Made by a program: the position numbers and the translations under genes | Shown here: in pieces, positions 1 through 44,469 of the stretch | How the letters are laid out: every line of letters starts with the position of its first letter | How positions within the stretch are numbered: position 1 is the first letter of the stretch | The notes under the pieces: model-generated | Databases searched by the model: none | What the model saw: the letters and a program-made list of their open reading frames with translations, nothing else | What the model was told of the DNA's origin: nothing | DNA from: Gammaproteobacteria bacterium | GTDB lineage: Bacteria; Pseudomonadota; Gammaproteobacteria; Xanthomonadales; Rhodanobacteraceae | NCBI GenBank assembly: GCA_004295005.1 | Contig: SHNG01000128.1 | Coordinates: 1 to 44,469 of the forward strand | Direction of reading: 5' to 3' | Length of the DNA: 44,469 nt

Positions 1-256
1 ACGCGGTTTCCGCGGAAGGCCGTGCGCTGGTTGCCACGGGGCGATTGTCGAAATCAACCACCATGATGTCGTTTACGCCCAGACGTCCCTTGTCACGGCC
101 GGAAACGGTAACCGCGACCAAATCGGTCCCCAGGCGCATGGAAAAATTGCTGCTCGTGGCCGGCGTCCAGCCCAGCGCGGCCAGTTCGCGCGCGTTGTCG
201 GCGATGCATTGCGCCTTGCGTTCGAACTCGGCGCGGTCATAGGGCAGGGTGGTGAT
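1..256 (-). CDS. mtnB: Methylthioribulose-1-phosphate dehydratase, N-terminal part (cut by window edge)
   Basis: MtnB dehydrates 5-methylthioribulose-1-phosphate in the cytosolic methionine salvage pathway. Only about the first 85 residues are inside the window. The minus-strand frame reads a [15 protein letters not shown] segment, then [12 protein letters not shown], then DIMVVDFD and RPSAET, the N-terminal blocks of the class II aldolase-like MtnB family. The start is awkward. A strong Shine-Dalgarno (AAAGGAG, 270-264) lies 7 nt before an ATC codon at 256-254, where family alignment would put the start. The nearest in-frame ATG is at 295-293, upstream of that Shine-Dalgarno and without a good site of its own. 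The end given assumes the ATC start; the ATG would make it 295. Family identity is firm, the start is not. Confidence 0.85.
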
Positions 257-29448: not shown

Positions 29449-29672
29449 CATCCAGCCGGGCAAGCCCGGCACGGCAATCGCCTGCGGGTTTGTGCGTTCC
29501 CCGTAGAGTGGAGCTTGCTCCGCTCGCGTCAACATCGAAGGCAACGACCTGCATCCAGCCGAGCAAGCCCGGCACGGCGATCGCCTGCAGGTTTGCGCGT
29601 TCCCCGTAGAGCGGAGCTTGCTCCGCTCGCGTCAACGCCACAGATGCAGCCGAGCAAGTTCGGCTCTACGAG
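29449..29672. repeat. Tandem REP/BIME cluster (two direct copies plus one inverted)
   Basis: Two direct copies of a unit about 100 bp long begin at 29449 and 29552, period 103. Each carries a GTAG tetranucleotide followed by a hairpin. REP1 is at 29503-29524 with one G-T pair; REP2 is at 29606-29627, perfect AGCGGAGC-TT-GCTCCGCT. REP3 at 29648-29669 is in the opposite orientation (GTAG then AGCCGAAC-TT-GCTCGGCT on the minus strand). The first copy also has the palindrome GCCGGGC-AA-GCCCGGC at 29455-29470. GTAG-headed hairpins in inverted arrangement are the hallmark of RAYT-mobilised REPs. It lies between two convergent genes, where it may also stop transcription. Confidence 0.85.
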
Positions 29673-42277: not shown

Positions 42278-42473
42278 TCCCATCTCGGGACATCCACAAT
42301 CTCGCTGGTTTCCTGCACATCGACACGGTGTTTTCCTACAGACACTGCGACGTAATCTCGGCAATCTGTCGGCGATCCCATCTCGGGACATCCACAATCT
42401 CGCTGGTTTCCTGCACACCGACGCGACGTTTTCCTACAGACACTGCGACGTAATCTCGGCAATCTGTCGGCAT
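42278..42473. repeat. Two tandem 98-bp direct repeats running into the RAYT start codon
   Basis: Copies at 42278-42375 and 42376-42473 are nearly identical (four substitutions around the middle and a change at the end). Each begins TCCCATCTCGGGACATCC and ends in CAATCTGTCGGC. The transposase ATG occupies the last two bases of copy 2 plus one more. Both contain the core CGGGACATCCACAAT that recurs in inverted orientation downstream of the transposase. There is a possible short hairpin TCCC-ATCTC-GGGA at each copy's start. Confidence 0.9.
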
Positions 42474-43464
42474 GACAACCGCCCGCAGCCAACTGGTCGA
42501 TGCCGAAGCGCCCGGCTTCTATCACTGCATCTCTCGCTGTGTGCGCCGCGCCTTTCTGTGCGGAACCGATCCTTACAGCGGGGTGTCTTACGAGCACCGG
42601 CGCGGCTGGGTCGAGGCGCGCCTGCTCGAACTGGCGGACATCTTTGCCCTAGGCGTGTATGCCTATGCGGTGATGACCAACCATGTGCATGTGGTGCTGC
42701 GCATCGACCCCACCGCTGTGTTTGCCTGGTCGGATGACGAAGTCGCTGAACGCTGGGTACGTCTGTTTCCAGCCATCGTGAACGGTGAGCGTGATGACGC
42801 GGCGTGCCGAATAAAGGCCCAAGGCATACAAGGCAACCCGGATCGCCTGGCCACCTGCCGTGAACGGCTGGGCAGCCTCGGCTGGTTCATGAAATCCCTG
42901 AGCGAACCCATTGCGCGACGGGCCAACCGGGAAGATGCCTGCACTGGACGCTTCTGGGAAGGTCGCTACAAATGCCAGGCGCTGCTGGACGAGGCCGCCG
43001 TTCTGAGCTGCATGAGCTATGTGGACCTGAACCCGATCCGCGCCGGCGTGGCCAAGACCCTGGAAACTTCGGAACACACCAGCGCGCTCAAACGCATCGA
43101 AACCTTGCGAGCAACGCCGGGCATGGCAAAGCGCCCGCTGGCAGCGATCAATGTCGTACCTGACCGTGATGTCCTGCCCATCTCCACGCAAGCGTATCTG
43201 GAACTGATCGACTGGACGGCACGGCTCGTTCGCGAAGGCAAACGCGGAAGCATCGATACCGCTGAACCCGGAATTCTGGGAAAGCTGGGATTGAGCGAAC
43301 GCCAATGGCACGAACAGATGTTGGGTACCGAGAAGCGCTATTGGCGCGCCATCGGCAGTGCTCAAGCCCTGATCGAGAAGGCCGCTGCCATCGGCCAAAC
43401 CTGGCTCAAGGGCATTGGCAATGCCCAGCGGTTTCCAGGGGCGCGTATCAAGTGCGTGGCGTGA
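42472..43464 (+). CDS. REP-associated tyrosine transposase (RAYT, Y1_Tnp/IS200-like)
   Basis: HUH single-strand DNA transposase of the TnpA_REP group, which recognises REP hairpins and cuts DNA with a tyrosine nucleophile. The 330-residue product starts with FYHCISRCVRRAFLCG, has the metal-binding HVH at residues 71-73 in YAVMTNHVHVVLRI, and RFWEGRYKCQALLDEAAV. The likely nucleophile is Tyr183 in SCMSYVDLNPIRAGV. A C-terminal region (200-330) is longer than in the minimal IS200 family and is seen in other RAYTs. All expected residues are intact, so it may be active. The ATG directly abuts the upstream 98-bp repeat; no Shine-Dalgarno is clear. Inverted 25-bp repeats lie downstream. Confidence 0.93.
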   Translation: MTTARSQLVDAEAPGFYHCISRCVRRAFLCGTDPYSGVSYEHRRGWVEARLLELADIFALGVYAYAVMTNHVHVVLRIDPTAVFAWSDDEVAERWVRLFPAIVNGERDDAACRIKAQGIQGNPDRLATCRERLGSLGWFMKSLSEPIARRANREDACTGRFWEGRYKCQALLDEAAVLSCMSYVDLNPIRAGVAKTLETSEHTSALKRIETLRATPGMAKRPLAAINVVPDRDVLPISTQAYLELIDWTARLVREGKRGSIDTAEPGILGKLGLSERQWHEQMLGTEKRYWRAIGSAQALIEKAAAIGQTWLKGIGNAQRFPGARIKCVA

Positions 43465-43564
43465 TGGAAAGTTTCCGCGGGCTCAACAGCCAACACCACC
43501 GGCCAGTTTGACCAACCCTCTCATGGCAACCATGATGGTTTCAAATTGGTTGGAGTCCAAAGTA

Positions 43565-43807
43565 TTGCCCACGACCTTGACGCTGAAAAACATCCCAGAC
43601 GAGCTGTATGAGCGGCTCAAGAGCGCGGCTGAATTGAACCGCCGCAGCCTCAACAGCGAGGCAATTGTCTGCCTTGAAAGTGGGCTGCGAATTGTGGATG
43701 TCCCGGATTCCGCGAATTGTGGATGTCCCGGATTCCGCGAATTGTGGATGTCCCGGATTCCGCGGATTCCGTCCCGGATTCCGCTCTGCGGATTGCGCTC
43801 GGATTGA
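43565..43807 (+). pseudogene. Truncated ribbon-helix-helix (FitA/VapB-like) antitoxin, C terminus replaced by repeats
   Basis: The segment LTLKNIPDELYERLKSAAEL, followed by NRRSLNSEAIVCLESGL, is a normal FitA/VapB-type ribbon-helix-helix antitoxin DNA-binding domain. The usual toxin-binding C terminus, an Arg-rich helix ending in an acidic tail, is missing. From about 43687 the frame runs into three 25-bp repeats and reads RIVDVPDSANCGCPGF, meaningless repeat-derived protein. No toxin gene follows. I use TTG 43565 with GGAG upstream, matching the usual start; an ATG at 43523 would add 14 residues. The gene is probably dead or makes an orphan repressor. Confidence 0.75.
43687..43782. repeat. 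Three perfect 25-bp repeats plus two partial copies, inverted to the ftsK-side repeats
   Basis: GCGAATTGTGGATGTCCCGG followed by ATTCC repeats exactly at 43687-43711, 43712-43736 and 43737-43761. Partials GCGGATTCC (43762-43770) and GTCCCGGATTCC (43771-43782) follow. The reverse complement contains CGGGACATCCACAAT, the core of the 98-bp repeats before the transposase. The period of 25 is not a multiple of 3, so each copy shifts the antitoxin reading frame. There are no spacers, so it is not a CRISPR. Confidence 0.92.
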
Positions 43808-43900: not shown

Positions 43901-44469
43901 ATGTGGTCCAGAATCGCACTAGCCATTAGCTGTTTCGTCGCACTGCCGGCCGTGGCTGGGTCGGTGACGCTGCCGTGGACGTTCCAGCCGGACACCCCGG
44001 CGGTTGCGTCGCAGGTCAACGACAACTTCGGTGCCGTCGCCACTGGCGTCAATGGCAACGCCGCCGATATCGCGGCGCTGCAAACCCAGCTTGCGGCATT
44101 GCAAAACACCGTTGCCGCGCAAGGCACCACCATCACAGCGCTGCAAGGCAACGTGATGACGCTGCAAGGTACGGTCGCTGCCCAAGGCACCACCATCACA
44201 GCGCTGCAAGGCGACGTGATGACGCTGCAGGGTACGGTCGCTGCCCAAGGCACCACCATCACAGCGCTGCAAGGCAACGTGATGACGCTGCAGGGTACGG
44301 TCGCGGCGCAAGGCAACACCATCACGACGCTGCAAGGCGACGTCACGACCCTGACGTCGCAACTCAACGCCGTCACCGCGAACCCGGTACTCGAACTCGG
44401 CAACTACGTCAGCCTGCAGATGCTTTCCGATCCGCAGAGCGGCAACAGCTACCCGACCGCTGTGTTCGA
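43901..44469 (+). CDS. Secreted coiled-coil repeat protein, N-terminal part (cut by window edge)
   Basis: At least 189 residues; the 3' end is outside the window. A signal peptide (MWSRIALAISCFVALPAVAG) is followed by PAVASQVNDNFGAV, a block seen at the start of exported proteins with fibre-like repeats. Then a 21-residue heptad-like repeat of LQGTVAAQGTTITALQGNVM type occurs about four times (roughly residues 67-147). The text then reads VLELGNYVSLQML, beginning a different domain. The repeats predict a trimeric or dimeric coiled coil, as in adhesin or tail-fibre stalks. GGGGAG precedes the ATG. The function cannot be stated without the C terminus; its place beyond the repeat array argues for an accessory gene. 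Confidence 0.8.
   Translation, partial: MWSRIALAISCFVALPAVAGSVTLPWTFQPDTPAVASQVNDNFGAVATGVNGNAADIAALQTQLAALQNTVAAQGTTITALQGNVMTLQGTVAAQGTTITALQGDVMTLQGTVAAQGTTITALQGNVMTLQGTVAAQGNTITTLQGDVTTLTSQLNAVTANPVLELGNYVSLQMLSDPQSGNSYPTAVF
44099..44341. repeat. 63-bp tandem repeat in the coiled-coil gene
   Basis: About 3.9 copies with period 63, for example the block CAAGGCACCACCATCACAGC starts at 44120, 44183 and 44246, and a variant at 44309. The copies are almost identical in sequence, differing mainly AAC/GAC and CAA/CAG, which points to recent expansion. Since 63 is a multiple of 3, copy changes keep the reading frame. Confidence 0.9.

Follow-up and report, generated by a model that had tools for sequence, protein, structure and literature searches.

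A Y1 transposase unit with terminal inverted repeats and tandem end duplications in Gammaproteobacteria

Introduction

How do repeats of two different lengths, which share one short core and face each other, come to bracket a transposase gene? The question is raised by a locus at positions 42278-43782 of contig SHNG01000128.1 (assembly GCA_004295005.1; Rhodanobacteraceae, Gammaproteobacteria), whose full 44,469 nucleotides (nt) are called the window here. A gene for a Y1 (HUH) transposase of 330 amino acids (aa) (42472..43464, plus strand) is preceded by two 98-bp repeats and followed by three 25-bp repeats, all of which carry a 15-base core pointing inward. The window coordinates confirm this arrangement, which had been reported in a preliminary description: the left repeats, 42278-42373 and 42376-42471, are 96% identical over 96 nt at a spacing of 98 nt, and the 15-mer CGGGACATCCACAAT has five exact copies in the window, two forward and three reverse, the latter at 43691-43705, 43716-43730 and 43741-43755 with truncated units further out to 43782. 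At up to three mismatches there are six window matches, compared with a shuffle mean of 1.37, and six was attained in one of 100 shuffles. The preliminary description offered two alternatives, a self-contained mobile unit or a resident repetitive extragenic palindrome (REP)-associated tyrosine transposase (RAYT) that multiplies its flanks, and both are favoured by what follows. We read the locus as a single copy of a small mobile element in which the transposase gene sits between two terminal cores that face inward, and its arrays run from a nearly fixed point about 9 nt outside the core.

Results

Relatives of the window protein were taken from two sets. The first comprises 80 loci from named genomes (the best 80 of 98 confirmed relatives, chosen for their similarity to the window protein), and arrays are commoner in it than in the second; upstream flanks were used if the match started at or before residue 5 and downstream flanks if it reached residue 300, which gave 65 and 68 of the 80. 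The second is a class-wide draw of 369 gammaproteobacterial genomes, 49 of which, own genome included, contain the protein at E <=1e-40. Thirteen plasmid or chromid records also carry the protein, and there were no matches among 50,697 phage records. One record in use, NZ_AP026896.1 (L231), has 4.94 Mb and is filed as an Aeromonas caviae plasmid; it is probably a chromosome.

In these relatives the core (consensus GGACAYCCA; longer form GGACAYCCA(Y)NAT) is, on sequence evidence, the terminal inverted repeat (TIR) of a mobile unit rather than a dispersed REP. Within 800 bp of the gene, GGGACA[CT]CC occurs 29 times upstream and 30 times downstream in the orientation that faces the gene, and 0 times and once in the opposite one, with about 0.5 per class in shuffles (first-set flanks; for L041, L046, L057 and L058 the gene start was placed at the upstream fragment). 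In 86 of 101 distinct left flanks a core precedes the start codon by 50-160 nt (opposite-strand control 11/101), and in 35/56 it does so by 79-88 nt. On the right it is found in 43/69 flanks (other strand 11/69), and in 36 of the 43 flanks that have one the nearest core lies 181-293 nt past the end of the protein match. The innermost left core of the window stands at -87 of the start codon, with identical spacing in L037-L041, L044, L045, L117 and L118. The head-on arrangement is thus the usual state across the family and not a peculiarity of this locus. The preliminary description named a core confined to one locus as grounds for refuting it. This holds only for the exact 15-mer, which in its own genome (3.47 Mb, 87% complete) is limited to this locus, and fails for the degenerate core at the 86 left flanks.

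The boundaries of the unit can be seen where copies in the same genome are compared: these are alike up to the core, and similarity is lost outside it, both at left ends (L069/L114, L064/L114, L068/L086, L095/L101, L050/L087 and L050/L056) and at right ends (L067/L105, L069/L114 and L050/L087). The logos of 80 left and 54 right ends, with repeats removed, are concordant: an A-rich stretch at -7 to -3 is followed by GGACA[CT]CCA[CT]NAT. At +10..16 the left and right ends of the same element agree at 0.50, compared with 0.35 between elements and a highest value of 0.43 in 300 shuffles. Two further candidates were rejected. A hairpin at the core was ruled out, as windows of -15..+30 around the cores show no more folding than shuffled sequence or the flanks (mean z -0.07 for 88 left and -0.19 for 59 right windows, a few duplicate loci included), in agreement with the earlier remark that the core is unlike the GTAG hairpins at 29.5 kb. 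A target-site duplication of the whole unit was also rejected, since the words that left and right outer flanks have in common are no longer than those of shuffled pairs (1.76 against 1.91, 41 pairs).

The arrays at these ends have a simple construction. The 6-10 nt outside the core (hereafter the tag) stay constant from unit to unit within a locus and vary from one locus to another: the window has CATCTC and GGAATCC, contig C38 of the same genome has AACCTC, and other loci have GAGAGCATT, GAGAAGC and GCGATCC. Each tag is followed by an element prefix of variable length. When the 8-mer spanning each position near the core was sought again within 150 nt outward, recurrence peaked at the tag/core junction and was near background about 5 nt further out. 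After removal of two left-end and four right-end duplicate loci, the junction 8-mer recurred in the first set at 23/56 left (background 4.6%) and 15/41 right ends (4.1%), and in the class-wide draw at 4/29 left (background 1.1%) and 4/13 right ends (5.4%); some duplicates remain in the position profile and in the tag-pair, folding, innermost-core, shuffled TTGA[CA] and class-wide 7-mer analyses. In a looser 7-mer test on the first set, the locus's own tag recurred at 36/56 left ends (permuted mean 11.3, highest 23) and 26/43 right ends (mean 9.9, highest 18).

Among 102 adjacent tag pairs from 50 end regions, 50 are fully accounted for by a tandem duplication and another 13 within 4 nt. The outer edge of the duplicated segment lies 8-11 nt from the core in 27/35 perfect events (range 6-15, ambiguity up to 3 nt). 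The inner edge is ragged, at 1-5 nt in 25/35 with a range from -1 to 27. Longer ones occur as well, 106 nt at L183, and at L041 a spacing of 212 with the same 10-nt tag and 2 unexplained nt, where the duplication reaches 38 codons into the gene. At the innermost core, 11/87 left and 13/57 right ends show a perfect duplication; elsewhere in the flanks the rates are 1.7% and 2.4%.

The window can be read in these terms. Left-end unit 1 (42278..42375, plus strand) begins with the 9-nt tag TCCCATCTC (42278-42286); the terminal core GGGACATCCACAAT (first copy 42287..42300) follows, and the copied left end extends to 42373. Two nt (GA, 42374-42375) lie outside the duplication account. Unit 2 (42376..42471, plus strand) has the same tag at 42376-42384, then the second and innermost left core (42385..42398) and the gene leader. 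The 98-nt repeat therefore equals 87 nt of element, 2 unexplained nt and the 9-nt tag. Beyond the right-end segment (43465..43690, plus strand), the right-end array (43691..43761, minus strand) has three cores at 43691-43704, 43716-43729 and 43741-43754, and its period of 25 is made up of 15 nt of element and the 10-nt tag CGCGGAATCC. The outer truncated units (43762..43782, minus strand) consist of the tag GGAATCC with only GGGAC, and then the same tag with only GC. The 98-bp and 25-bp repeats, which might have been separate families, are instead tandem duplications of unequal length across the same type of junction, and the left and right arrays are one phenomenon: in both, the duplicated segment has an almost constant outer limit and an inner limit that varies.

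The same footprint was observed with another core. A second group of transposases in the same genus, which by description resembles subclass 2.1 of Quentin et al. (2018) in motifs and length, has GGGGTCAG cores and tags that are duplicated alike. At its 33 loci (from L140, L147, L148, L149 and L244-L273; L140, L147 and L148 were chosen after their tags were known, and the other 30 are those obtained for the best of 39 matches), 19 left and 15 right ends carry GGGGTCAG[AG] directed at the gene, and one of each carries it in the outward direction. The junction 8-mer recurs at 9/32 ends. Of 22 tag pairs, 11 fit a duplication perfectly, and their outer edges lie at 5-12 nt (mode 9). Beside the subclass-2.3-like genes of the first group, GGGGTCAG was counted 3, 0, 2 and 1 times by side and strand, with about 1.1 in shuffles.

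Arrays and gene also go together within the genus of the window genome. Nine of its ten genomes have some match to the protein and five have a full-length copy (G005 as split frames only); four of the ten also sit in the first set, so that the genus and named sets are not independent. Arrays were found in all five genomes with a full-length or split full-length copy and in none of the five without. By hand count, 19 of 22 array pairs are no further than about 3.3 kb from the gene or from one of its fragments; the other three are an array on contig C2 of the window genome. The pattern GGGACACCCA occurs 11, 25, 13, 7 and 34 times in the element-bearing genomes versus 4, 4, 2, 3 and 1 times in the others, and the reversed control pattern 0-7 times per genome. 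In the window genome, 33 matches to GGGACATCCACAAT at up to two mismatches include the C2 array and clusters that precede the one other intact copy (on contig C38, 74% identical) and a copy interrupted by the contig end on C32. Partial gene copies were also counted by hand, from rows of at least 45% identity with neighbouring colinear pieces merged and with full-length copies, split full-length copies and the C32 copy set aside: 21 of 24 contain the first or last residues and three are internal. In G008 (contig C1, 597334-600369), fifteen GGGACACCCA copies in a single orientation extend over about 3 kb and adjoin a C-terminal transposase fragment (residues 190-321).

Arrays change over time, as judged from an orthologous insertion with two versus six left cores. 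Two strains filed as Pseudoalteromonas shioyasakiensis carry the element at the same place after isocitrate dehydrogenase (88.7% identity over 89% of the region); A316 has two left cores and SDCH90 has six, including an exact 110-nt match at spacing 121, and both have two right cores. In Pseudoalteromonas sp. CF6-2 the genes for isocitrate dehydrogenase and acetolactate synthase are present and the element is missing from the stretch between them; this is only a near-empty site because a few tens of AT-rich junction bases are unaccounted for. For the window itself, ftsK is present in 9/9 other genus genomes, and the sequence that follows differs from the window in eight (L124 left out), with no match to the window's right flank within about 1.5 kb beyond ftsK. 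The comparison gives nothing precise because the window contig ends there. Several genus genomes have after ftsK a gene which we take, from its protein motifs, to be lolA-like. Elsewhere, the L212 site had no match outside its source genome (18 genomes of its genus), no empty site was found in Vibrio and Aeromonas records, the genes upstream of the element in chromid L228 are present in HL-AS1 and CuT4-3 with different genes next to them, and L237/L238 gave no clean pair.

An HUH motif and a catalytic tyrosine followed four residues later by asparagine are present in the transposase of the window (H71, H73, Y183 and N187), and across 41 aligned sequences H73, Y183 and N187 are invariant and H71 is conserved in at least 90%. 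In a structural search the protein resembles Escherichia coli TnpA_REP, to whose fold it adds an extra insert and a C-terminal part; a sequence search against solved structures gave no relevant match, and the fold search alone matched. Scores against family models fall below the cut-offs (Pfam Y1_Tnp 17.6 bits against 23; NCBIfam REP_Tyr_transpos 34.2 bits against 80), and at E <=0.01 the two models match 29/41 and 41/41 relatives. Motifs and fold thus agree with the original view of a RAYT-like Y1 transposase. Judged by the description in Table 1 of Quentin et al. (2018, PMC6006769), the protein fits TnpA_Y1 subclass 2.3: it has 330 aa, YVDLNP at 183-188 and extra helices between 80-133 and 204-319. 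At the HuH motif it reads NHVH, whereas Table 1 gives NHYH, the majority form in our alignment.

Several observations weigh against a mobile unit whose transposase duplicates its ends. Arrays are present at only part of the ends (the 23/56 and 4/29 left and 15/41 and 4/13 right ends above), and no core was found at 15/101 left and 26/69 right flanks. The 7-mer test has a high background, with a control 7-mer at -40 recurring at 19/56 left and 12/43 right ends, and in the class-wide draw it is not separable from permuted tags (7/20, mean 5.1, highest 11). Simple duplication leaves 39/102 adjacent tag pairs unexplained. The event search required at least five matching nt outside and at least two inside the core, because of which outer edges nearer than 5 nt are invisible. 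For the C2 array (AGAATCC-tagged GGGACACCC copies at 1280-1460 of L119), no transposase was found on the contig; an array can thus occur away from the gene. At L049 (Thioalkalivibrio sulfidiphilus ALJ17), none of the core pairs fits simple duplication. No exact empty site was obtained, and cleavage, binding and movement are here predictions. The L049 array is also unusual in appearance: upstream of position 1510, sixteen GGGACAYCC cores with variable stretches between them look almost CRISPR-like, and its tags mostly end in TACTTT.

Discussion

The nearly fixed outer edge, the ragged inner edge, the lack of dependence on tag sequence, the occurrence at both ends on opposite strands and the presence of a Y1 enzyme together suggest that the arrays arise by cleavage, extension and religation. 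The Y1 transposase would recognise the core as single-stranded DNA and cleave that strand about 9 nt 5' of it. The enzyme's tyrosine would stay bonded to the tag's 5' end, and the host side would be left with a free 3' hydroxyl. A polymerase would extend this end by n nt, copying the tag and the start of the element anew, and the enzyme would rejoin the new 3' end to the tyrosine-linked tag, so that each round adds one more tag together with n nt of element. A small n would give arrays of 10-25 nt, n of about 90 the 98-bp repeat of the window, and n of several hundred the gene fragments anchored at one end. The right array would be the same event on the other strand, which may be why the two arrays face each other. 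In TnpA_REP, a tyrosine-linked 5' end passes to an added oligonucleotide with a 3' hydroxyl, according to the part of PMC8266576 used here. Three things lead us to infer that the transposase made the arrays: their common geometry, the parallel in the second group, and the finding that arrays and gene occur together. Cleavage about 9 nt outside the core with 3' extension and religation is the best overall explanation, one that we would give an even chance of being correct. A wider proposal is that Y1 transposases whose terminal repeats form no hairpin are duplication writers, adding tag-plus-prefix units at their own ends, and that this holds for at least two groups with unlike cores. We put it forward tentatively, with slightly more doubt than belief.

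A staggered double nick could leave a similar trace. A dimer, or one enzyme acting on both strands in turn, would nick about 9 nt outside the core on one strand and slightly inside it on the other, and fill-in of the 5' overhang and joining would produce a tandem duplication. The duplication of CRISPR repeats and the repair of paired nicks are analogies for such a process. The inner edges at 1-5 nt in 25 of the 35 events are what a second nick near the core would be expected to give. The inner edges of about 90-200 nt (98 in the window, 106 at L183, 212 at L041) are long for a single stagger, and the known Y1 enzymes use single-stranded DNA (PMC6006769, in the passages drawn upon). We consider this explanation unlikely.

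Passive slippage or unequal recombination would make the first duplication an accident, after which the repeats vary and the transposase is a bystander. Existing repeats can indeed vary in copy number without an enzyme, and at L239 a three-core block was duplicated whole (the 110-nt exact match at spacing 121). The tags are unrelated, yet the outer edge is common relative to the core and duplications are rare elsewhere in the same flanks, and the effect recurs with an unrelated core in the second group. This makes slippage quite unlikely as the main source of the arrays.

The extra cores on the promoter side might instead be selected regulatory sites, at which binding of the transposase or of a host factor adjusts expression. 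A -35-like TTGA[CA] box lies directly downstream of the core at 38/86 distinct left ends of the two sets (39/88 with duplicates, shuffled mean 2.35), and because of this position core binding might also control the gene. The right ends also have arrays, with boxes at only 6/59 (shuffled mean 1.75), and many units are trimmed to a few core nt that could hardly bind anything. Regulation accounts for the retention of units, not for the geometry of their formation, and we regard it as an improbable origin. We rate as very improbable a core that moves alone through the genome as REPs do, with the arrays as its landing sites, because the gene-free C2 array and the higher number of GGGACACCCA copies in element-bearing genus members, which would suit it, stand against a core without a hairpin and the 19/22 array pairs near the gene or a fragment.

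The element stands close to several known systems. By kind it belongs beside the TIRtrons, in which, in the passages of Di Nocera et al. (2013; PMC3733652) used here, a RAYT-like gene (TIRYT) likewise lies between non-REP TIRs, some at a similar distance from the gene and many as dimers or clusters. The motif shared by the majority of described TIRtrons is GGGGWSAS, which the second-group core GGGGTCAG fits and from which the present core GGACAYCCA differs. Those passages do not contain a tag-plus-truncated-core structure with a fixed outer edge. Against the papers used here, the additions are terminal repeats in a subclass not reported to have them and the duplication footprint. Quentin et al. 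(2018) place the 26 TIRtron examples in subclasses 2.1, 2.2 and 2.5, with no member in 2.3. As far as their text was available to us, subclass 2.3 shares with the present group a length of about 325 aa, YVDLNP, an NHxH-type HuH motif, an insertion in the core domain, a C-terminal extension, several copies per genome and a gammaproteobacterial bias. The same source reports no REP-like sequence for it by automatic or manual search; the present group, unlike that report, has terminal inverted cores and arrays.

REPtrons, that is RAYT genes with GTAG REPs and REP doublets forming hairpins (REPINs), are alike in the Y1 fold (4ER8), in inverted signal copies flanking the gene and in clustering beside it. 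They differ in that the present core has neither a hairpin nor a GTAG REP (the GT[AG]G-plus-hairpin pattern is absent), and in that REPtrons are said in the sections of PMC6006769 used here not to transpose as a unit, whereas the present unit appears to move whole. With the IS200/IS605 family (IS608, ISDra2) the element shares Y1 HUH chemistry and fold, and cleavage outside a subterminal signal is plausible here too. The ends of that family have subterminal hairpins and guide tetranucleotides (PMC6006769, same sections), whereas here they are inverted and unfolded, with a tag that varies by locus. The -15..+30 windows contained no subterminal hairpin of the IS200/IS605 kind. To our knowledge, IS200/IS605 elements insert without target duplication, and none was seen here either. 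Such arrays were not described in the titles and abstract openings of literature on RAYT, TIRYT, TnpA_REP and duplication, a scope with preprints and most subscription papers outside it, and among the matches listed for papers containing core 10-mers, none by its title concerns this element.

Some features of the window and its relatives stand apart from these points. The right-end segment contains a FitA-like antitoxin (ribbon-helix-helix) domain at 43574-43681, which looks truncated because its reading frame runs into the right array. The right cores of the window copy read GGGACATCC, and those of L037-L046 mostly GGGACAC. In most Dokdonella-group copies (left ends of L037-L045, and the window at 42385-42471), TTTCCTACAGACA or a near variant is kept in the leader that separates the core from the start codon. 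The GTAG-type hairpin repeats CGTAGAGYGGAGCTTGCTCCGCTCGCG at 29480-29640 are apparently a separate canonical REP family with no visible tie to this transposase. At 43901-44467, a protein begins with about four coiled-coil-like repeats of 21 residues (63-nt DNA repeats) and ends at the contig edge.

How TnpA_REP-type enzymes multiply short repeats is described as poorly understood in the part of PMC8266576 available to us. The footprint reported here predicts a cut site 8-10 nt outside a short non-hairpin core, with a tandem tag plus element prefix as the product, and its presence in the second group suggests a general rule and not a local oddity. A subclass reported as repeat-free would gain a terminal signal, and the end-anchored gene fragments may be the long tail of the same process. 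Recent activity can also be recognised in genomes by means of this footprint. If the proposal is true, duplication writing would be a route to small dispersed repeats and truncated gene copies.
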